64,000 nucleotides of DNA from Serratia marcescens (GTDB lineage Bacteria; Pseudomonadota; Gammaproteobacteria; Enterobacterales; Enterobacteriaceae): NCBI RefSeq assembly GCF_006715005.1, contig NZ_VFMJ01000001.1, positions 1,612,001 to 1,676,000 on the forward strand. Reading direction: 5' to 3'. Below the pieces are notes generated by a model. That model was not told the DNA's origin and did no database searches. It saw only the letters and a program-made list of their open reading frames with translations. Shown in pieces: positions 820 to 35,862 of the stretch (within the stretch, counting starts at the first letter, position 1; each line of letters opens with the position of its first letter). A program made the position numbers and the translations under genes.

Positions 820-2280
820 TTACAGCAGCGGGCTGAAAAAGTAGAACAGGCGCTCGACCAGGCGATGCCAGAATGGCCGCTTCAGCCACTCTTTGGCGTT
901 CAGCAACTGGGAACGGGCGATGTAATCTTCCTGCACGCAGGCCAGATCGCTGCCGAAGCCGTCATCGTCGATCACCAGCGTGATCTCGAAGTTCAGCCAC
1001 AGGCTGCGCATGTCCAGATTAACGGTGCCGACCAGGCTGAGCTGGCCGTCCACCAGCACGCTCTTGGTATGCAGCAGGCCACCTTCGAACTGATAGATTT
1101 TCACGCCGGCCTCCAGCAGCTCGGAGAAGAATGCGCGGCTGGCCCAGCGCACCATCATCGAATCGTTGTCGCGCGGCACGATGATACTGACCTCAACGCC
1201 GCGTAGGGCGGCGGTGCAAATGGCGTGCAGCAGATCGTCGCTCGGCACGAAGTACGGCGTGGTCATGATCAACTGCTCGCGCGCAGAATAGACCGCTGTC
1301 AGCAGCGCCTGGTGGATCATCTCCTCGGGGAAGCCGGGGCCGGAGGCGATCACCTGAATGGTATGGCCGCTTTCCTGCTCGAACGGCATGATATTGACGT
1401 CCGGCGGCGGCGGCAGAATGCGCTTGCCGGTTTCAATCTCCCAGTCGCAGGCATAGACGATGCCCATGGTCGTGGCCACCGGGCCTTCCATGCGCGCCAT
1501 CAGGTCGATCCATTGGCCGACGCCCGCATCCTGCTTGAAGTAGCGCGGATCGACCATGTTCATGCTGCCGGTATAGGCGATATAGTTGTCGATCAGCACC
1601 ACTTTGCGGTGCTGGCGCAGATCCATGCGGCGTAGAAATACGCGCAGCAGGTTGACCTTCAGCGCTTCGACCACTTCGATGCCGGCATTGCGCATCATCG
1701 CCGGGTAGGGGCTGCGGAAAAATTGCAGGCTGCCGGCGGAGTCCAGCATCAGGCGGCAATGTACGCCGCGCCGGGCGGCGGCCATCAGTGATTCGGCCAC
1801 CTGATCGACCAGGCCGCCGGGCTGCCAGATATAGAACACCATTTCGATGTTGTGGCGTGCCAGCTCGATATCGCGGATCAGCGCTTTCAGCGTGTCGTCG
1901 GTGGTTGTGAGCAGCTGCAGCTGGTTGCCTTTGACGCCGTCGATGCCCTGGCGGCGGTTGCACAGCTGGAACAGCGGTTCGGCGACTTCACTGTACTCGG
2001 TAGCGAAGATGCGGCGGCTCTCTTTCAGCTCTTTCAGCCAGCGTGCGGTTGACGGCCACATGGCCTTGGCACGCTCGGCCCGGCGCTTGCCCAGGTGCAG
2101 TTCGCCGAACGATAAATAGGCCACGATGCCGAATAGCGGCAGAATGTAGATAACCAGCAGCCAGGCCATGGCAGAGGGAACCGCGCGGCGTTTCATCAAA
2201 ATGCGCATCGTCACGCCGGCGATCAGCAGCCAGTAGCCGAACACCATGAGCCAACTGATTACGGTATAAAATGTTGTCAT
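820..2280 (-). CDS. clsA: Cardiolipin synthase A
   Basis: Joins two phosphatidylglycerol molecules to give cardiolipin and glycerol at the inner membrane. The start is placed at 2280 because the protein then begins [11 protein letters not shown] and is 486 residues, the E. coli ClsA length; an open frame continues upstream but does not look like ClsA. Two N-terminal hydrophobic segments (about 5-25 and 37-57) are followed by two phospholipase D motifs, HRKVVLIDN in the first half and HTKSVLVDG in the second. The C-terminus ends in the family tail LFYFFSPLL. High confidence by near identity to ClsA. Confidence 0.96.
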
Positions 2281-2522
2281 AAAGGCGAAAAATCCCGTTC
2301 GCAAACCACCAATGATGAGTGTACGCACAGATCGGTCAAGGCGAAACCTTTTATCGGCGCTTATGTTACATAAATATGATGAAGTTAAGGCACTTGCTGA
2401 AAATGAAAGGGCGGCTTTTGCCCGCGTGGCGCCCGCTGTACCGCCGATAACTGCGGCTTGGATCACGGACGGAAAGGACTATAATGCCCGCGGTTGGCAT
2501 TAGACGAACGAGTGACGGAATT

Positions 2523-2699
2523 ATGAGACGCAGTAGAAATGAAGTGGGCCGCTGGCGCATGTTGCGGCAGAGCCAACGCCGCCGGCATCGCTGGCTGGAA
2601 CGCCAGTCGTGCAGCAATCGCCATATTATCCGGGTGCGGCGTCGCCTGGACGATCAGCATCGGCGCGCGCTGCTGTTTGCGGTATCCTGCGAGTGGTAA
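2523..2699 (+). CDS. yciY: Small basic protein YciY
   Basis: A 58-residue, Arg-rich protein whose start MRRSRNEVGRWRM matches E. coli YciY. The frame is open further upstream, but homology begins at 2523. Function is unknown. It sits divergently upstream of clsA, the same place as in E. coli, and ends just before a terminator hairpin. Its high Arg content suggests nucleic-acid or phosphate contacts, but that is only inference. Confidence 0.8.
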   Translation: MRRSRNEVGRWRMLRQSQRRRHRWLERQSCSNRHIIRVRRRLDDQHRRALLFAVSCEW

Positions 2700-2703
2700 A
2701 ACG

Positions 2704-2732
2704 AAAACAGTCCCGTGAGGGACTGTTTTGTT
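2704..2732. terminator. Terminator after yciY / Dps-family gene
   Basis: The inverted repeat AAAACAGTCCC/GGGACTGTTTT around GTGA is flanked by A and T tracts and lies between convergent genes. It should act in both directions. Confidence 0.8.
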
Positions 2733-2744
2733 ATGGCGCCAGGG

Positions 2745-3236
2745 TTATTTGCCCAGATAGGCGTTGAGCATCCAGACCTGTTTTTCCTGTTCTTTGATGT
2801 AATCGCTCATCAGCGACGCGGTGCCTTCGTCACCGGCGTCTGCCGCCACCGCCAGCAGCTCACGCTGCTGTTGCAGCAAGACTGAATACCCTTCCAACAG
2901 GCCGCGCAGCGTGCCTTTATCATCGGTCACGTTGGTGTGTTCCTTGATGTCGGCGGTTTTCAGATAGTCGCTGAAAGCGTGACGCGGCTGAGAACCCAGC
3001 GTCAAAATACGTTCCGCCAGCTCATCCACCTTGGTCAGCAGATCGTTATATGTCTCTTCGAATTTCGCGTGCAGTTCAAAGAACTGCGGGCCGGTAATAT
3101 TCCAGTGATAGCCGCGCACGTTCATATACAGCACCTGATAGTTCGCCAACAGCGCATTCAGCGCTTCGGCGAGTTTTGCCGATTGTTTACTGTCGAGGCC
3201 GATATGGGTTTTCGCTGCTTTCTTTGCCGTTGCCAT
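2745..3236 (-). CDS. Dps-family ferritin-like DNA-protection protein
   Basis: A 163-residue Dps/miniferritin. Such proteins form dodecamers that oxidise and store iron and protect DNA in starvation or peroxide stress. The start at 3236 (MATAKKAAKTHIG) has a good AGGAGA ribosome site. The ferroxidase residues can be read as His44, His56, Glu60, Asp71 and Glu75, with the same spacing as His51/His63/Asp67/Asp78/Glu82 of E. coli Dps. The rest of the sequence is far from E. coli Dps, so this is a second Dps lineage rather than its ortholog. The short Lys-rich N-terminus could bind DNA. It is the first gene of the accessory block between yciY and yciI. Confidence 0.88.
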   Translation of the reverse strand: MATAKKAAKTHIGLDSKQSAKLAEALNALLANYQVLYMNVRGYHWNITGPQFFELHAKFEETYNDLLTKVDELAERILTLGSQPRHAFSDYLKTADIKEHTNVTDDKGTLRGLLEGYSVLLQQQRELLAVAADAGDEGTASLMSDYIKEQEKQVWMLNAYLGK

Positions 3237-3436
3237 AATAATCTTCTCCTGATTATTTGTTCCGATAGTAGACAGAATCAATTTCCATAGCTGTTACAGT
3301 AACCGGATTTATCGCAGGGTTAAACACGATAACAGGCATTATTGCCATCGCTCAAACCGATGACGATAAATCCGTCGAGCAAATTGCCGAATCAGTTTAC
3401 GCAGGATCCGCAGGCGAAAAAAGCCGCTTTTATCGG

Positions 3437-4909
3437 TTACTTGCGCAGCGCCAGTTTCACCGCGCCGGCGCCCAGCGCCATTAACAGCGCGGCGGCGATC
3501 AGCACCGTAATAAACGCGCGCTCAAAGGCCAAACGCGCCAGCTGCGTCAGCTGCTGCGCGCGGTCGGCCGCCATCCCGGCCGCCAGCCGCAGGGCTTCGT
3601 CGATGCTGTCGTAGGCCAAATCGCTGACCGGCAGCTCCGCTGGCAGTGCCAGGCTGTGGCTATAGACCGCCGTCATCAGCCCGCCGAGCAGCGTCACGCC
3701 CAGCACGCCACCCAGTTCGTAGGAGACGTCTTCGATAGAGGCCGCCATGCCGGATTTCTCCTCTGGCGCGTTCAGCATGATGGCGGTGGACGCGGCGGTG
3801 ATCACGCCGCCGAGGCCAAAGCCCACCAACGCCAGGCTCACCAGCTGCAGCCCCATACTGCTTTGATACCACAGGGCGAGGCCGGCGATGCCAAAGGTGG
3901 TCAGGGCGAAACCGCCGAGGATGATGCTGCGTTCGCCGTAGCGCGGCAGCAGCAAACCGGCCATCGGCCCCGCCAGCGCTGAGGCCAGCGGGATCGGCAA
4001 AATAAACAGCGCCGCCTGCAGCGGGCTGAGGCCGAGCACCAGCTGCAAGCGTTGGCTGAGCACCAGCTCGACGCCGATCAGCGCCACCATCGACAGCAGG
4101 GCCACGCCGATGCCGCCCGCGAACAGCCGATTGCGGAACAGGGAGAAATCGATCATCGGGTGAGCACTGCGCTGCTGACGACGCACGAACAGCACGAGGA
4201 ACAATACGCCGATCGTGGCCGCCACGAGCAGGGCGATCGCATCAGGCGTCGGCTTGCTCAGCTCCTTCAGCGCATAGATAGCGCCGACCAGGCCAATCAT
4301 GATCTGCACCGAACCGACGATGTCCGAAGGGCGCGGGTTATCGCCGCCGCAGCGAGGGATCAGTTTCGACGCCAGCGGCCAGACCAGCAACACGACCGGC
4401 ACATTGATCAGGAACACCGAACCCCACCAGAAATACTCCAGCAGCAGGCCGCCGACCACCGGGCCGATGGCCGCACCGCCGGAGGCCACCGAGGCCCAGA
4501 TGCCGATCGCCAGCGCGCGTTCACGTTCGTCGGTAAAGACGTGGCGCACGATGGACAGCGTGGCGGGCATCATCATTGCCGCGCCAACGGCGAGGAACAC
4601 CCGCGCGGCGATCAGCCATTCGGCGGTGGGCGAGAAAGCGGCGCACAGCGACGCGACGGCAAACACCGGCAGTCCGGCGAGAAACAACCGTTTATGGCCG
4701 ATGCGATCGCTCAGCATGCCGGCGCCGGGCAACAGGCCGGCCACCACCAACGGGTAAGCGTTGACGATCCAGAGTTTTTGCGAGGCACTGGCGTTCAGCG
4801 CCTGGGTTAAGCGCGGCAGGGCGGTATATAACACCGTCATATCGATAACGATCAGGAAAAGGGCGCTGGCGACCATCGTCAGGATCAACCAGCGGTTCTT
4901 GGCGTACAT
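3437..4909 (-). CDS. 14-TM MFS multidrug efflux transporter, SmvA/QacA type (DHA2 family)
   Basis: A 490-residue inner-membrane drug:H+ antiporter. Hydrophobic segments span the whole length. Family motifs seen are DMTVLYTALP in helix 1, GMLSDRIGHKRLFL in the 2-3 loop, and ASGGAAIGPVVGGLLLEYFW, the motif C region. The stretch WWGSVFLINVP is very like Salmonella SmvA, which exports quaternary ammonium compounds, methyl viologen and chlorhexidine. A TetR gene is transcribed divergently 126 bp away, the arrangement of smvA-smvR. Likely substrates are cationic biocides or dyes (inference). The SmfY-type pump of S. marcescens is an alternative name for this family member. Confidence 0.85.
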   Translation of the reverse strand: MYAKNRWLILTMVASALFLIVIDMTVLYTALPRLTQALNASASQKLWIVNAYPLVVAGLLPGAGMLSDRIGHKRLFLAGLPVFAVASLCAAFSPTAEWLIAARVFLAVGAAMMMPATLSIVRHVFTDERERALAIGIWASVASGGAAIGPVVGGLLLEYFWWGSVFLINVPVVLLVWPLASKLIPRCGGDNPRPSDIVGSVQIMIGLVGAIYALKELSKPTPDAIALLVAATIGVLFLVLFVRRQQRSAHPMIDFSLFRNRLFAGGIGVALLSMVALIGVELVLSQRLQLVLGLSPLQAALFILPIPLASALAGPMAGLLLPRYGERSIILGGFALTTFGIAGLALWYQSSMGLQLVSLALVGFGLGGVITAASTAIMLNAPEEKSGMAASIEDVSYELGGVLGVTLLGGLMTAVYSHSLALPAELPVSDLAYDSIDEALRLAAGMAADRAQQLTQLARLAFERAFITVLIAAALLMALGAGAVKLALRK

Positions 4910-4991
4910 AATTCATATCCAGTTAACGTGGGCGGCGCGGAGGCGCCGCCATTCGGGTAACCCACCGGCGATGCCGGGTGGTATACTGATG

Positions 4992-5020
4992 ATAATATAT
5001 ATCCATACGTTCGTATTGAA
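4992..5020 (-). promoter_or_regulatory. Promoter of the MFS pump gene with embedded TetR-type operator
   Basis: On the minus strand TTCAAT (5015-5020) and TATTAT (4992-4997) are 17 bp apart, a good sigma-70 layout for the pump gene. Between them, touching the -35 box, lies the inverted repeat ATACG-TT-CGTAT (5005-5016). A dimeric repressor bound there would cover the promoter. The divergent tetR gene begins 20 bp further, so the site could also set autoregulation. The site is visible; which protein binds it is inferred. Confidence 0.6.
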
Positions 5021-5035
5021 AAGAAGGGTTTCTAA

Positions 5036-5587
5036 ATGGGACGTCAACGCAGCATCGATCGCGACAAGGTTTTGGACATCGCCGAAGAGATCGTCGCCAC
5101 CCAGGGCGCCGCCGGCTTGACCATCGACGCCGTCGCCAAAGCGATGGGGATCTCCAAGGGCGGGGTGCAGTATTGTTTCGGCAGCAAAGACGCCCTGATC
5201 GATGCCATGTTCGATCGCTGGGGCAGTGCCTATGAGACGCTGTTCACGGCGATCGCCGGCGACGATCCTTCGCCGCAGACTGCCGTGCGGGCGCATATGT
5301 TGGCCACCCAGAGTTCGGATCAGACCGCCAGCGCCAAGGCCGCCGGGCTGATGGCGACGCTGATTCAAACGCCGGAGCATCTGGCGAGCACGCGCGAATG
5401 GTATCGCAGCCGCATCGCCGGTTTGGATTTGACCACCGAAGAAGGCAAGCGCGCGCGCCTGGCGTTTCTCGCCACCGAAGGCGCCTTTATGCTGCGTTAC
5501 TTTGGTTTAATGGATATCGACCAGGCGGAATGGGAAACGATGTTCGCCGATATGCAGGCATTGATATTGACGGGCGGCGACAAGTAA
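5036..5587 (+). CDS. TetR/AcrR family repressor, divergent from the MFS pump (SmvR-like)
   Basis: A 183-residue one-domain-plus-effector regulator. The N-terminal helix-turn-helix reads LTIDAVAKAMGISKGGVQYCFGSKDAL (split here at about residues 28-54), typical of TetR proteins. The C-terminal part (about 60-183) is the variable ligand-binding helical domain. Divergent pairing with an SmvA-like pump matches SmvR, whose inactivation raises biocide efflux in other Enterobacterales. It probably represses the pump and itself through the palindrome at 5005-5016. The ligand cannot be deduced. Confidence 0.85.
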   Translation: MGRQRSIDRDKVLDIAEEIVATQGAAGLTIDAVAKAMGISKGGVQYCFGSKDALIDAMFDRWGSAYETLFTAIAGDDPSPQTAVRAHMLATQSSDQTASAKAAGLMATLIQTPEHLASTREWYRSRIAGLDLTTEEGKRARLAFLATEGAFMLRYFGLMDIDQAEWETMFADMQALILTGGDK

Positions 5588-5634
5588 GCGCAGGGACAAG
5601 CGGCAGGGAGCAGCCTGCCGCGGGCTAAGCCTGA

Positions 5635-5898
5635 TTATTTATAGGCTATCGCATTGATGGTTTCGAAGGTGGTTTTCCCCTCGCGACCGATAATGACGTA
5701 ATACTTACCGCCTTTTTCATCTACCGCTTTCGACAGACGCGCATGGTCGATCCCCACGGTGTCGTCGCCGTCTTGTGAAATGGTCACCGGACCGATCTCG
5801 GTATGTTTCGCCGCCTCTTCCCGAGTGATTTCAATTGCCGCCAGGGAAGAGAATGAGGTGAACGCCAGCAGTGCCAAGAGATATTTAGTTGCCTTCAT
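5635..5898 (-). CDS. Secreted YdgH/BhsA/McbA-like protein (DUF1471)
   Basis: An 87-residue protein with a signal peptide (MKATKYLLALLAFTSFSSLA, cleavage after about residue 20) and a single DUF1471 domain (VTISQDGDDTVGIDHARLSK...YYVIIGREG). The start at 5898 is chosen because it opens the signal peptide. Small proteins of this family (BhsA, McbA, YhcN) are periplasmic or outer-membrane-associated and respond to acid, peroxide, copper or biofilm conditions. The precise role here is unknown. It is convergent with the tetR gene, 47 bp away. Confidence 0.85.
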   Translation of the reverse strand: MKATKYLLALLAFTSFSSLAAIEITREEAAKHTEIGPVTISQDGDDTVGIDHARLSKAVDEKGGKYYVIIGREGKTTFETINAIAYK

Positions 5899-6031
5899 AA
5901 TTATTCCTTTTGGAAGATAAAAACGACCCGTAACTGCATCTTGACTACGGCTCAAGTGTAGGTCAGCGGCGGCGGTTTACCATGCAGCGGCAAAAAATAG
6001 TCTCAGACGGTGGCGCCTATCACACTGATAG

Positions 6032-6124
6032 TTAGTCAAGGGGGCGGCGAAAGGCGTATGTTTATCGAACAAGATATTCCCTCGAAGAACCTTTAAGCCA
6101 GCCACTCCGTGCTGGCTTTTTTTT
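6032..6124 (+). ncRNA. Candidate small RNA with strong intrinsic terminator
   Basis: No gene on the + strand precedes the excellent terminator at 6095-6124, so that terminator has no known client. The transcript would begin near a 15-bp palindrome (CTATCA-CAC-TGATAG, 6017-6031). The 3' part, CCCTCGAAGAACCT followed by AAGCCAGC...GCTGGCTTTTTTTT, recalls the flanks of RyhB without its long central seed. No convincing -35/-10 pair was found, so the start is a guess. It could instead be a remnant or an antisense terminator for the sugar-transport operon. Confidence 0.3.
6095..6124 (+). terminator. Rho-independent terminator on the + strand
   Basis: Perfect stem AAGCCAGC/GCTGGCTT (6095-6102, 6111-6118) with an eight-base loop and eight T. 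The minus strand has no T tract here, so the terminator serves a + strand transcript. Confidence 0.8.
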
Positions 6125-6173
6125 GCAGACAAGTGCCATAGCAGGGCCCCCTGGAGCCAGGGGGCCGGGGGGA

Positions 6174-7181
6174 TTATTTGCGGGCATCCAACAGCGCTTG
6201 GGCGTTCTCTGCGGTAACGACGGTCCACGGAATGTAGTAATGCTTCTGCGTGCCACCCTCCCATTTCAGATCCTTGGCGTACTGCTTCCAAATATCCGAC
6301 TGAGGTTGATAGCTTTCACCTTTCACAGCACGCAGCGCGACGTCGATGGAGCCCTGCATCTGGCCTTTGGCATCTTGCAGAATAGAGACCATTTCACCGG
6401 CCTGCACCGCATGAATCGCGTCGGAAACGCCGTCAACGCCGGCAATCGCGAAGTCCTTCACATTCAGGCCGGCGCCTTTGATCGCTTCGATAGCGCCCAG
6501 CGCCATCTCGTCGTTTTGGCCGATCACGCCGTTGATTTTACCCCGGTGTTTCTGCAGCCAGTTTTCCATCAACGGCTGCGCTTCCGCGCGTGACCAGTTG
6601 GCCGTTTTGCGTTCAAGTACGGTGACCTGGCCGACACCGCACTCGGCAATCGCTTTATCGTTGCCCTTGCCGCGCTGGATCTCGCCGCTGCCGCCTTTCG
6701 GGCCTTCGATAATCACCACGTTCACCTTTTGGTTCTTGCAGTCGAGTTTGTTCAGGACGGCTTTGGCTTCCAGATACCCGCCCAACTCGTCATTAGACAC
6801 CACTTCAGACGTCATCGCGTCCGTGTTCAGGCGCGCGTTGGTGACCACCACCGGGATTTTGGCTTCGTTGGCATTAGTGACGATATCGATATTGGCTTCA
6901 AAATCCATCGGGTTGACGATAATGGCATCGGCGCGCGTCTGGATAGCGGTGGCGGCCTGATCGTTTTGCACCGATGCATCATAACGCCCATCGTAGAAGG
7001 TCAGCACGGCTTCGCCGCTTTTCACCGCCGGGTGTTCCTTCCCGAACCTTTCCATCAATTGCACAAACTCGGCTTTGTTGCCGTACATCAATACCGCAAT
7101 TTTAACCGGGGCGGCCTGAGCAGCCGACAGGCTACCGAACATCATGGCAGAGGCAAACAACGCTATCTTGGTCTTATTCAT
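6174..7181 (-). CDS. Periplasmic sugar/polyol-binding protein of ABC importer
   Basis: A 335-residue type I periplasmic binding protein (RbsB-like fold). A signal peptide of 23 residues ends at SAAQA before APVKIAVLMYGN. The ORF keeps the family landmarks DAIIVNPMD, GQNDEMALGAIEAIK and AIAGVDGV. It is the last gene of a minus-strand operon with the permease, ATPase, xylulokinase-like kinase and xylitol dehydrogenase-like enzyme, with AGGAGA before its ATG. From context the ligand is probably a pentitol (xylitol or D-arabinitol) or D-lyxose; sequence alone does not settle this. Confidence 0.88.
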   Translation of the reverse strand: MNKTKIALFASAMMFGSLSAAQAAPVKIAVLMYGNKAEFVQLMERFGKEHPAVKSGEAVLTFYDGRYDASVQNDQAATAIQTRADAIIVNPMDFEANIDIVTNANEAKIPVVVTNARLNTDAMTSEVVSNDELGGYLEAKAVLNKLDCKNQKVNVVIIEGPKGGSGEIQRGKGNDKAIAECGVGQVTVLERKTANWSRAEAQPLMENWLQKHRGKINGVIGQNDEMALGAIEAIKGAGLNVKDFAIAGVDGVSDAIHAVQAGEMVSILQDAKGQMQGSIDVALRAVKGESYQPQSDIWKQYAKDLKWEGGTQKHYYIPWTVVTAENAQALLDARK

Positions 7182-7214
7182 GGTTTTCTCCTGGTAGAGT
7201 TGGGTCTGATGTTA

Positions 7215-8252
7215 TTAATCGCGCTGTTGCTTACGCGAGGGGTCGAGCAAGACGGCAAGAACGATCAATGCGCCTTTGATAATTTGTTGGTAATACGATT
7301 GCACGCCGAGCAGATCGAGGCCGTTATTCATCACCCCGATAATCAGTACGCCGAAGAAGGTGCCGACCAGCGTACCGACACCGCCGGCCATGCTGGTGCC
7401 GCCGATCACCACCGCCGCGATGGCGTCCAGCTCATACCCTGCGCCGGCGTTGGTCTGCGCCGAGCCGGTGCGCGCCGTGAGGATCAGGCCGGCGATGCCG
7501 GCCAGCGCGCCGCACAGCGTATAAACCAGAATTTTGATGCGGATGACGTTGATCCCCGAGGTGCGCGCGCTTTTCGGGTTGCCGCCGACGGCGTAGATGT
7601 AGCGCCCGAAGAGGGTTTTATTCAGCACAAGCCAGGCGAGGGCGAACAGCACGATGAAGATGATAACGGGCACCGGAACGCCGCCGACATAGCCATTGCC
7701 TAACCAGCGGAAATCGCTGTTCAATTGCGATACCGGATTGCCGTTGGTGGTCAACATGGTTAAACCGCGCGCCGCGGAGAGCATGCCCATGGTGACGATA
7801 AACGGCTGCAGCCGATAACGGGCTAACACGGTGCCGTTCACCAGGCCGCAAACGATGCCGATGCCCAGCGCCACAATCAGCGGCGCCATGACGGCGGTCG
7901 CGGTGTCGCCGATAGCCAATCCGCTGTTGTTGGTGGCGAAGCGAGCGGCAACGATCCCGCTTAACGCCAGCACCGAGCCCACGGAGAGATCGACGCCGGC
8001 CGTAATGATGACAAAGGTCATGCCGATCGCCAGAATGCCGTTGATCGAGACCTGGCGCAGGACGATCAGGGTGTTTTCATTGCTGAGAAAATAATTGCTG
8101 CTCCAGGCGCCCTGAGCGACCTGGTATTCGCCAATCAGCGCCACGATCAGGCACAGTGCGAAAAAGGCGATGATAATGCCGTACTTGTGCATACGGCGCT
8201 TATTGCGGGTGAAAAATGAAATTCCTGGTGATAAGGAGTGGGCGCTGCTCAT
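7215..8252 (-). CDS. ABC sugar/polyol transporter permease (RbsC/AraH family)
   Basis: A 345-residue inner-membrane permease (BPD_transp_2 family) with about eight to ten hydrophobic segments. Family landmarks are GVDLSVGSVLALSGIVAA, FIVTMGMLSAARGLT and the helical stretch GTSMAGGVGTLVGTFFGV near the C-terminus. The start at 8252 (MSSAHSLSPG) has GAGAGA just upstream; a longer frame to 8279 would overlap the ATPase gene. It should form a homodimer that passes the substrate from the binding protein at 6174-7181, driven by the double ATPase at 8269-9774. The stop precedes the binding-protein start by 33 bp, so they are co-transcribed. Confidence 0.9.
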   Translation of the reverse strand: MSSAHSLSPGISFFTRNKRRMHKYGIIIAFFALCLIVALIGEYQVAQGAWSSNYFLSNENTLIVLRQVSINGILAIGMTFVIITAGVDLSVGSVLALSGIVAARFATNNSGLAIGDTATAVMAPLIVALGIGIVCGLVNGTVLARYRLQPFIVTMGMLSAARGLTMLTTNGNPVSQLNSDFRWLGNGYVGGVPVPVIIFIVLFALAWLVLNKTLFGRYIYAVGGNPKSARTSGINVIRIKILVYTLCGALAGIAGLILTARTGSAQTNAGAGYELDAIAAVVIGGTSMAGGVGTLVGTFFGVLIIGVMNNGLDLLGVQSYYQQIIKGALIVLAVLLDPSRKQQRD

Positions 8253-33488: not shown

Positions 33489-33848
33489 ATGATTAAACAG
33501 GTTTCTTTTTTAGCGGCCTTATTATTTTCCTCAATGGCAAATGCGGGGTTTTATTCGGGCAGCGGTTTGCTGGCGGAATCCGGCGGTTACGTAAAAAATA
33601 AAAGCGGTGAAGCCACCGTGGCCGAAGCGCTGAATGGCGGCATGTTTATGGGGTACGTCGCCGGCGTATTCGATACCTATTCCATGCAGGGCAATCGCAA
33701 TATCTGCCCGGAAGCCGGGATGAGCATCGGCGTAGCCGCCGACGCGGTGATGCAGTATTTGAACGAGCATCCTGAGCAGCTGCATTATTCCGCACCGTCG
33801 GTGATCATGTTGGCGCTAACCGCCGCCTATCCCTGCGTGCGCCATTAA
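33489..33848 (+). CDS. Rap1a/Tai family immunity protein-like (orphan)
   Basis: 119 residues with a signal peptide (MIKQVSFLAALLFSSMANA) and a mature domain of about 100 residues carrying Cys73 and Cys116. The pattern ICPEAGMSIGVAADAVMQYL-NEHPEQLHYSAPSVIMLAL-TAAYPC is the recognisable core of Rap1a/Tai4 proteins, which neutralise peptidoglycan amidase effectors of type VI secretion in the periplasm. No effector gene is adjacent: the neighbours are yciO and an alpha/beta-hydrolase. It may be an orphan defence gene or an unrelated periplasmic role of the fold. Homology is by pattern, not search. Confidence 0.75.
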   Translation: MIKQVSFLAALLFSSMANAGFYSGSGLLAESGGYVKNKSGEATVAEALNGGMFMGYVAGVFDTYSMQGNRNICPEAGMSIGVAADAVMQYLNEHPEQLHYSAPSVIMLALTAAYPCVRH

Positions 33849-33996
33849 GTTTCCCTTCCAATTCGTGCGCATTTTTTCATAAGGTGCGCTCGGACTCTTA
33901 CCGCACGAACTTCAATAGATCAATGCCTGCTGCGCTGTCACCTTATCCCCGTCGGTATTTCCCGAACGGGTCGGGGAGAGACGCGCAGGAGGTAAT

Positions 33997-34794
33997 ATGA
34001 CCGCATTTCACAGCGCCAACATGGCGCTCGACTATCAGGATATCGGCTCAGGGCCGCTCACGCTGGTGTTGCTGCCCGGCTGGTGCGAACCGAAAACCGT
34101 GTTTGAGCCGTTCATCGCTCTGGCCGCCGAACGCTATCGGGTGATCAGTATCGACTGGCGCGGCCACGGCCTGTCGTCAAAAGCGGCGGAGATGTCGCTG
34201 GCGGCGGACGATTTGCTGGAAGATGTGCGTCAGTTGCTGACGGCGCTGCGTTTGGACAATGTGATCACCCTGTCGGTGGCGCACGCCAGCTGGCTGGCGG
34301 TGGCGTTGGCCGAAGCGTTACCGCAGCGGGTACGGGGCATGGTGTTTCTCGACTGGATCATGACGCAGCCGGAACCGGCGTTCTTTACGGCGGTGAGCCG
34401 TATGCAGCAGCCGCAGCAGTGGCTGGCGGCGCGTGACGCTTTGTTCGACTTCTGGCAGGGAGGCATCCGCCACGATCGGGTCAAACGCCATCTGGAGGTC
34501 GAGATGGCGCAGGAAGATTACCGGCTGTGGCGTGCCGCCGGCGTAGCCATCGAACAGGCCTACCGGCAGTTCGGCTCGCCGCTGCAACGCCTGGCGGGAA
34601 TGAGCGCGCCGCCCCCGTGTCGACACATCTACTCGTTGGATCGCCGCGACGACTATCTGCGGCAGCAGCAGGCATTTGCCGCCGAACAGCCGTTTTTCTC
34701 CGTGGTGCGTCTAGGGGAGGCTCGCACTCACCTCGGCATTTTGGAACGGCCCGACGCGGTGCTGTGGGCGGTGGAGGATTTTTTGGCGCCGTGA
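33997..34794 (+). CDS. Alpha/beta-hydrolase related to cofactor-free 2,4-dioxygenases, nucleophile replaced by Ala
   Basis: 265 residues, alpha/beta-hydrolase fold. Compared from memory with 1H-3-hydroxy-4-oxoquinaldine 2,4-dioxygenase (HOD), these motifs align: LPGWC (residues 26-30), DWRGH (53-57), SVAHASW (93-99), LDWIM with Asp119, DALFDFW with Trp153, FGSPLQRL, CRHIYS and RTHLGILERP with His245. The nucleophile Ser of HOD (in TSHG) is Ala95 here, with His96 kept. In HOD the catalytic His-Asp pair does most of the work, so a cofactor-free oxygenase role on a heteroaromatic or quinolone substrate is plausible. It may also be a non-catalytic homolog. Two other neighbours give no function clue. 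Confidence 0.7.
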   Translation: MTAFHSANMALDYQDIGSGPLTLVLLPGWCEPKTVFEPFIALAAERYRVISIDWRGHGLSSKAAEMSLAADDLLEDVRQLLTALRLDNVITLSVAHASWLAVALAEALPQRVRGMVFLDWIMTQPEPAFFTAVSRMQQPQQWLAARDALFDFWQGGIRHDRVKRHLEVEMAQEDYRLWRAAGVAIEQAYRQFGSPLQRLAGMSAPPPCRHIYSLDRRDDYLRQQQAFAAEQPFFSVVRLGEARTHLGILERPDAVLWAVEDFLAP

Positions 34795-34956: not shown

Positions 34957-35862
34957 ATGAGCGAAAAGTTACAGAAAGTTTTAGCGCGCGCCGGGCATGG
35001 CTCGCGTCGTGAAATCGAAACCATGATTGAAGCCGGGCGCGTCAGCGTCGACGGCAAGGTCGCCAAGTTGGGCGATCGCGTTGAAGTGACCCCGGCGATG
35101 AAAATTCGTCTGGATGGCCATGTCCTGTCGATCAAAGAATCCGAAGAGGTGGTTTGCCGGGTGCTGGCTTACTACAAACCGGAAGGCGAGCTATGTACCC
35201 GCAGCGATCCTGAAGGCCGCCCGACGGTGTTCGATCGCTTACCGAAGCTGCGCGGTTCGCGCTGGGTGGCGGTAGGGCGCCTGGACGTCAACACCTCCGG
35301 TCTGCTGCTGTTCACCACCGACGGTGAACTGGCGAACCGTCTGATGCACCCAAGCCGTGAAGTGGAACGTGAGTACGCGGTACGCGTGTTCGGCCAGGTC
35401 GACGATGCGAAAGTGAAGCAGCTGAGCAAGGGCGTGCAACTGGAAGACGGCCCGGCCGCGTTCCGCACCATCAGCTTCCAGGGCGGTGAAGGCCTCAACC
35501 AGTGGTACAACGTGACCCTGACCGAAGGCCGCAACCGTGAAGTGCGTCGCCTGTGGGAAGCCGTGGGCGTGCAGGTGAGCCGCCTGATCCGCGTGCGCTA
35601 CGGCGACATCGATCTGCCGAAAGGCCTGCCGCGTGGCGGCTGGGCGGAACTGGATCTGCCGGCGATCAACTACCTGCGCGAGCTGGTTGAATTGAAACCG
35701 GAAACGGTCAGCAAAATGCCGGTGGAGCGTGAGCGCCGCCGCGTGAAGGCTAACCAGATCCGCCGTGCGGTCAAGCGCCACTCTCAGGTGGCCGGCAGCG
35801 GCCGCCGCAGTGCGCCAGGCAGCAAGCCGGGTAAACCGGGCAAGCCAAGCAAGCGCAGCTAA
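34957..35862 (+). CDS. rluB: 23S rRNA pseudouridine(2605) synthase RluB
   Basis: 301 residues. N-terminal S4 RNA-binding domain ([22 protein letters not shown]) and a catalytic domain with Asp110 in [11 protein letters not shown]. The C-terminal tail is basic and Gly/Ser/Lys-rich. It converts U2605 of 23S rRNA to pseudouridine. It is 162 bp after the HOD-like gene and before a terminator. Confidence 0.95.

Follow-up and report, generated by a model that had tools for sequence, protein, structure and literature searches.

What can a protein with the alpha/beta-hydrolase fold do when alanine stands in place of the serine on its nucleophile elbow? The question is raised by an open reading frame at positions 33997–34794 on the forward strand of a 64,000-nucleotide stretch of Serratia marcescens DNA (the whole of which is called the window here), which runs from an ATG start to a TGA stop and encodes a product of 265 amino acids. 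From the reading frame itself, from phmmer searches and from an AlphaFold2 model with its fold matches, this coding sequence is assigned to the family of HOD, QDO and AqdC, the cofactor-free dioxygenases. Few enzymes use O2 without a metal or a cofactor, and, to our knowledge, all the ring-cleaving dioxygenases with this fold that have been tested act on 3-hydroxy-4-quinolones. As argued below, the window protein is probably a cofactor-free oxygenase of the HOD type, working by general-base catalysis on a heteroaromatic substrate.

Among solved structures, the window protein finds its nearest sequence relatives in HOD (expectation value, E, from 5e-45 to 2e-43), AqdC (E 2e-38 and 4e-37) and QDO (E 4e-35), followed by an unrelated alpha/beta-hydrolase at E 1.4e-10. 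The structure prediction and superposition proposed in an initial annotation of the sequence have now been carried out. The AlphaFold2 model, made from an input alignment of 37 sequences that were all family members (the window protein plus 36 from related loci), has a mean predicted local distance difference test score of 93.1 and fits AqdC, HOD and QDO best. The top 19 rows of a Foldseek search are all AqdC, HOD or QDO, with AqdC as the first structural match, and a second structure aligner places the 11 listed HOD, AqdC and QDO entries at Z 37.3–38.3 (root-mean-square deviation 1.4–1.6 over 261–263 residues), the best other fold being at Z 27.9. The cap domain is included in the fold that the model shares with these enzymes; the comparison is uninformative on substrate. 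Because both the E-values and the structural Z-scores lie far ahead of those of the next relatives, the window protein is, by sequence and by predicted fold, a member of the HOD/QDO/AqdC family, as the initial annotation had supposed.

It might be objected that the Pfam assignment of the protein is Abhydrolase_1 and that its relatives carry the database name ‘alpha/beta hydrolase’, which would favour an ordinary serine esterase or hydrolase; a scan of NCBIfam gives weak matches only, far below the cut-offs. Such an identity is hardly credible, and was rejected on sequence and fold alike, since the E-values of the dioxygenases are better by 25–34 orders of magnitude and their Z is about 10 above that of the best esterase, and since Ala95 leaves no Ser, Cys or Asp nucleophile at the elbow. 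In other words, the closest relatives are not ordinary esterases (E 4e-35 to 5e-45 as against 1e-10; Z 37–38 as against 28).

The landmarks that the initial annotation had named are all found at the positions it gave, namely Gly28-Trp29-Cys30, Asp53-Trp-Arg-Gly-His57, Asp119-Trp-Ile-Met, Trp153 and Arg243-Thr-His245, and Ala95-His96 does indeed take the place of Ser101-His102 in HOD. Alignment with HOD pairs Ala95 (codon GCG, 34279–34281) with Ser101, Asp119 (34351–34353) with Asp126 and His245 (34729–34731) with His251; it also pairs Trp29 (34081–34083) with Trp36, His96 (34282–34284) with His102, and, in the cap-domain part of the pocket, Trp153 (34453–34455) with Trp160 and Trp178 (34528–34530) with Trp185. 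All these codons are on the forward strand, and these residue correspondences, like the others given here, rest on sequence alignment. According to PMC3961685, His251 is the catalytic base of HOD, with Asp126 as its dyad partner, and the H251A change lowers kcat/Km by 5,500- to 512,000-fold, depending on pH; the same paper gives Ser95, His244 and Asp120 as the catalytic positions of QDO, which correspond to Ala95, His245 and Asp119 of the window protein. According to PMC10548524, Trp36 of HOD contributes its backbone NH to the O2/oxyanion site and its backbone C=O to the substrate NH, and His102 belongs to the O2 site.

In all, 22 HOD positions were mapped, comprising 19 ligand contacts published in PMC10548524, the dyad residues Asp126 and His251, and Leu128 (from PMC5178339). 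Thirteen are identical in the window protein (in HOD numbering, Gly35, Trp36, Cys37, His102, Asp126, Phe136, Leu156, Trp160, Met177, Trp185, Gly189, Ile192 and His251). The changes are His38 to Glu31 (34087–34089), His100 to Val94 (34276–34278), Ser101 to Ala95, Gly103 to Ala97, Ser188 to Ala181 and Phe252 to Leu246 (34732–34734), together with conservative hydrophobic changes at three further positions. How far these residues are kept was judged from 85 distinct gathered proteins of 230–330 amino acids, from which L100 (an aberrant frame) and L103–L110 (ordinary alpha/beta-hydrolases of 23–25% identity, four of which had served as outgroup in an earlier tree) were left out, and to which QDO and AqdC were added, giving an alignment of 78 rows. 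Gly35, Trp36, His102, Trp105, Trp160, Trp185, Ile192 and His251 (HOD numbering) are invariant in all 78 rows, seven of these eight falling among the mapped positions; the O2-site equivalents Trp29 and His96 are thus kept throughout, and the Asp119/His245 dyad is intact in 38 of 38 Enterobacterales rows.

A kept His-Asp dyad and independence of a nucleophile would, it must be said, fit any base-catalysed reaction, such that an enzyme of the same architecture making no use of oxygen, for example a lyase, an isomerase or a retro-aldol enzyme, has to be considered; the archaea in the neighbouring clade (see below) may also be counted for it. We nevertheless regard it as unlikely, given that the O2-site residues Trp36 and His102, as well as the aromatic residues Trp160 and Trp185, are kept without exception in the 78 rows.

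With regard to the elbow, the initial annotation had made two claims, of which the first, that oxygen chemistry may survive without the serine, is supported, albeit by an argument that was already published. A 2023 paper reports that AqdC naturally carries alanine at the elbow and that the serine is dispensable in HOD, where the S101A change increases Km 60-fold with no effect on kcat; in published work, the part given to the elbow residue is to hold O2 against water. HOD S101A (PDB 8oro), which is the top PDB sequence match, is in effect the laboratory equivalent of the natural alanine of the window protein, differing in that the change was engineered in HOD. The second claim, that the alanine makes the enzyme unusual, is not supported: 57 of the 78 family rows have alanine, AqdC2 among them, and 21 have serine. 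The elbow feature is, in short, already known and explained in the literature. The AqdC2 gene of Rhodococcus erythropolis and the deposited AqdC sequence 6ra2 both have alanine there, in conflict with the AqdC variant deposition 6rb3, which has serine at the elbow and alanine at the catalytic histidine; despite this disagreement, the elbow residue of AqdC is taken as alanine here, after the 2023 paper.

The comparative record of the elbow comes from a 65-row tree, for which the elbow column was left out and 13 near-duplicate rows were omitted. It requires 10 changes between serine and alanine (10–11 in bootstraps), of which well-supported branches force 8; the closest pair to differ, L037 and L074 of the wide clade described below, is 85% identical overall. 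For comparison, a control hydrolase of the ordinary alpha/beta type, encoded in the same genome, has GHSMG at 13 of 13 loci (11 of 299 genomes), a set that is small and, at 57–100% identity, narrower than the HOD-like family. Five loci found after the alignment, and entering no serine/alanine count, have alanine (L131) or serine (L132–L135). Within the Enterobacterales the residue is constant: alanine is present in 21 of 21 full-length Serratia orthologues, encoded by three different codons, and in 17 distinct aligned relatives from other Enterobacterales, making 38 of 38 rows. The idea that the elbow alanine arose from a frameshift or as an artefact of sequencing was rejected, alanine being common to all Enterobacterales rows and the ratio of nonsynonymous to synonymous substitution rates (dN/dS) being low. 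Indeed, because all orthologues share the alanine through three codons and under purifying selection, Ala95 is neither chance nor a sequencing slip.

That selection can be read from the Serratia genus itself, where 30 genomes were available, 26 of them of at least 4.9 Mb. The gene is intact in 21 of these 26; four (G013, G016, G024 and G026) have remnants only, in the same place, and one (G001) has other genes there, while the four smaller genomes give no HOD-like match at E ≤ 1e-12. The 21 intact copies are under purifying selection, with a median dN/dS of 0.10 among those pairs, 72 of 210, whose dS lies between 0.05 and 1. A dead enzyme or binding protein, that is, a pseudo-hydrolase kept as a sensor, would account for the lost hydrolase serine and for a gene that some Serratia can do without; it is very unlikely, however, in view of the low dN/dS, the dyad intact in every Enterobacterales row and the fact that AqdC, with its alanine, is an active dioxygenase. 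Beyond the genus, the HOD-like family looks rare in the samples, with a member in 2 further genomes of a class sample of 369 (E ≤ 1e-15) and in 3 further ones of a phylum sample of 398 (E ≤ 1e-20).

One scan of a species-representative contig collection yielded 65 loci, two of them (L101 and L102) partial. The tree resolves four clades, each of them single: the Enterobacterales (27 rows; support 100/100), HOD/AqdC (5 rows; support 100/97, with the Enterobacterales rows outside), a QDO-like clade (2 rows) and a wide set (31 rows). The window enzyme therefore lies outside both the HOD/AqdC and the QDO clades. Its relatives in Photorhabdus, Rahnella, Ewingella and Erwinia are 51–55% identical to it, and plasmid copies from Rahnella and Pantoea 48–51%, two Pantoea copies covering only 69% of the query; the plasmid copy of Pantoea agglomerans ZJU23 (L045) is shortened to 186 amino acids and is without the catalytic histidine region. 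The wide set, at about 32–38% identity, comes from Pseudomonadota, Acidobacteriota, Myxococcota, Actinomycetota, Cyanobacteriota and archaea, among others, and its motif is mostly VAL[SA]HAGW (for example L066, L067, L071, L078, L081 and L086). No relative of the protein came up when viral contigs were scanned.

Set beside the characterised enzymes, the window protein shares with AqdC of Mycobacteroides abscessus (PDB 6ra2/6ra3) the fold (6ra2, Z 38.3), the dyad, the O2-site Trp and His, and the equivalents of Trp160 and Trp185; the natural elbow alanine is common to it, AqdC and AqdC2 of R. erythropolis BG43. It differs from both in its overall sequence (30–32% identity), in having Glu31/Val94 for the His38/His100 pair, Ala97 for Gly103 and Leu246 for Phe252, and in the lack of AqdA and AqdB relatives in the window. 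HOD of Arthrobacter sp. Rue61a (meqE; PDB 2wj3) has the same fold (Z 37.7), dyad and 13 mapped positions, but is only 32% identical, belongs to a different clade, carries Ser101 in place of Ala95 and alone of the two has meq neighbours. QDO of Pseudomonas putida 33/1 (PDB 3ibt; Z 37.3) likewise has no His38/His100 pair (Gln/Thr instead), yet is 31% identical, of a different clade and a serine enzyme at the elbow.

The His38/His100 pair is present in all five HOD/AqdC-clade rows, whereas 38 of 38 Enterobacterales rows have Glu or Gln and Val at these positions. Both histidines contact the substrate in HOD, according to PMC10548524 and PMC5178339, and the latter, a computational paper, predicts steric conflict between a long chain at C2 and three parts of the pocket, namely His38, His100 and the Trp36-Cys37 backbone. 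The changed pair is therefore likely to alter C2 acceptance, and the Glu31/Val94 lining suggests, from sequence, that the C2 group of the substrate differs from that of HOD's or AqdC's substrates. The pair is dispensable for oxygenase activity as such, because QDO is also without it.

The same positions bear on a narrower proposal, namely that the protein is a quorum-quenching enzyme that specifically cleaves the Pseudomonas quinolone signal (PQS). AqdC is, after all, the top structural match and also has alanine at the elbow. Moreover, pseudomonads share the soil and plant habitats of Serratia, Rahnella and Pantoea. A PQS-cleaving subfamily is said to have been defined by Wullich et al. in 2020. 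Against the proposal, the window enzyme stands outside the AqdC clade, has exchanged both histidines of that clade, as have all the Enterobacterales rows, and is without the AqdA and AqdB relatives that flank AqdC2 and two further AqdC-clade genes. No such Serratia enzyme was found in the open-licence PMC literature, among the matches listed. PQS cleavage is, on balance, unlikely.

Gene context was assessed by tblastn of AqdA2, AqdB2, the meq monooxygenase and the meq hydrolase against the window and all gathered loci at E ≤ 1e-5. Relatives of these proteins adjoin the AqdC-clade genes L040, L042 and L044 and HOD (L041), and a quinolone-degradation cluster in the window was rejected, no match to any of the four being found there. 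In the wide set there is one weak match to a pathway protein (L066, 32% over 94 amino acids), and weak flavin-monooxygenase matches, mostly of 23–31%, occur at ordinary-hydrolase loci, including those of the control family. The best AqdB2 match in the whole genome (27% identical, E 5e-18) is beside the control hydrolase, far from the HOD-like gene. Two QDO-like genes with elbow serine, L132 and L133 (in G599 and G602, genomes of the phylum sample), have beside them genes related to the flavin monooxygenase and the hydrolase of the meq pathway, at 45–47% identity, and these loci are, on their sequences, probable quinoline-degradation clusters.

The present analysis shows that the window protein belongs to the family and has its fold, that the dyad and the core of the pocket are kept, and that the gene is conserved under purifying selection; each step of the chemistry proposed for it is taken over from HOD. 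The substrate would be a flat heteroaromatic compound with an acidic enol, in which a 3-hydroxy group adjoins a 4-oxo group. It would lie among Trp29, Trp153, Trp178 and Ile185 and give up its enol proton to His245, itself modulated by Asp119. O2 would occupy what was once the oxyanion hole, formed by the backbone NH groups of Trp29 and His96 and by the His96 side chain, with Ala95 replacing the serine beside it as a ‘hydrophobic elbow’; on its addition to the substrate anion, the ring would open and CO would be lost. A quinolone is a plausible substrate, the leading class being a 3-hydroxy-4(1H)-quinolone or close analogue, and a 3-hydroxyflavone-type substrate is possible. Because the gene is stand-alone and patchily kept, a role outside a full catabolic pathway, in the removal of a foreign or waste heteroaromatic, fits. 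An anti-phage role was rejected, PADLOC giving no match.

Several observations weigh against an HOD-type oxygenase. AqdA, AqdB and meq relatives are found by tblastn neither in the 64-kb window nor at the Enterobacterales loci of the HOD-like gene, and this tested lack of catabolic partners therefore sets the Enterobacterales clade apart from the true quinolone dioxygenases. Agreement at the mapped positions stops at 13 of 22 with HOD and 14 of 22 with AqdC. Decay or loss in 5 of the 26 large Serratia genomes means that the gene is dispensable. The archaea of the wide clade include Nitrosocaldus and Calditenuaceae, dwellers in hot springs, where 3-hydroxyquinolones are no obvious food. Finally, we know of no characterised member of the wide clade, and of no tested enzyme in either it or the adjacent Enterobacterales clade, such that activity has to be carried over the deepest splits of the family. 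In this regard, a more specific version may be put forward tentatively, in which the Enterobacterales clade (Serratia, Photorhabdus, Rahnella, Ewingella, Erwinia and Pantoea), and perhaps the wide clade, would be oxygenases that need no cofactor and act on some class of substrate other than the 3-hydroxy-4-quinolones; on this view, the Enterobacterales branch would have given up the serine permanently, and Glu/Gln31 and Val94 would be the residues about which its pocket was remodelled.

As regards the locus itself, AGGAGG at 33987–33992 on the forward strand, 4 nucleotides upstream of the ATG, is a likely ribosome-binding site from its sequence, and a promoter scan of the locus gave one site, no excess over shuffles (mean 0.9). 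Directly upstream in Serratia is a Rap1a-family gene (PF18602, type VI immunity-like; 33489–33848), present also at Serratia loci where the HOD-like gene has decayed. On the other side is a gene at 34957–35862 that we take to be rluB; yciO lies upstream, and btuR, yciK, sohB and topA downstream, all as we presume by recognition. Gene order is identical in the nearest named orthologues (S. bockelmannii, S. marcescens and S. ureilytica; 95–97% protein identity), and the position of the gene is constant across Serratia, with neighbours that vary in the other genera for which flanks were listed. In one Serratia species (L143, G001:C1:915600-924800) other genes, at 1271–7714, replace it between the Rap1a gene and rluB; by eye, these appear to encode a benzoylformate-decarboxylase-type enzyme, an aldehyde dehydrogenase, a ketopantoate-reductase-like protein, an MFS transporter and a LysR regulator. 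Rahnella copies are followed directly by PF03992 antibiotic-biosynthesis-monooxygenase genes (L059:5813-6100, where the frames overlap by 7 bases; L038:6900-7223 and L093:5900-6220), which are of two dissimilar kinds, in two different contexts. The two proteins matched no other locus then gathered, for which reason these genes were left out of the explanation. Three Serratia genomes (G014, G011 and G029; loci L031, L032, L033 and L136) have a second, QDO-like paralogue with elbow serine, of which the G014 copy is closest to QDO 3ibt (E 4e-74) and adjoins an amidohydrolase, and the G011 copy has an internal stop.

For the family, the overall picture is one of a group wider than its tested branches, in which repeated switching between serine and alanine shows by comparison, on a line of evidence separate from the HOD mutants, that the enzymes can do without the serine. 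A well-conserved, uncharacterised clade with alanine only and an altered pocket is in this sense a good target for assay rather than a surprise, its members lending themselves to tests of substrate range and of what the elbow residue does. Were PQS or another antimicrobial to be the substrate, Serratia would have in this gene a common means of detoxification.
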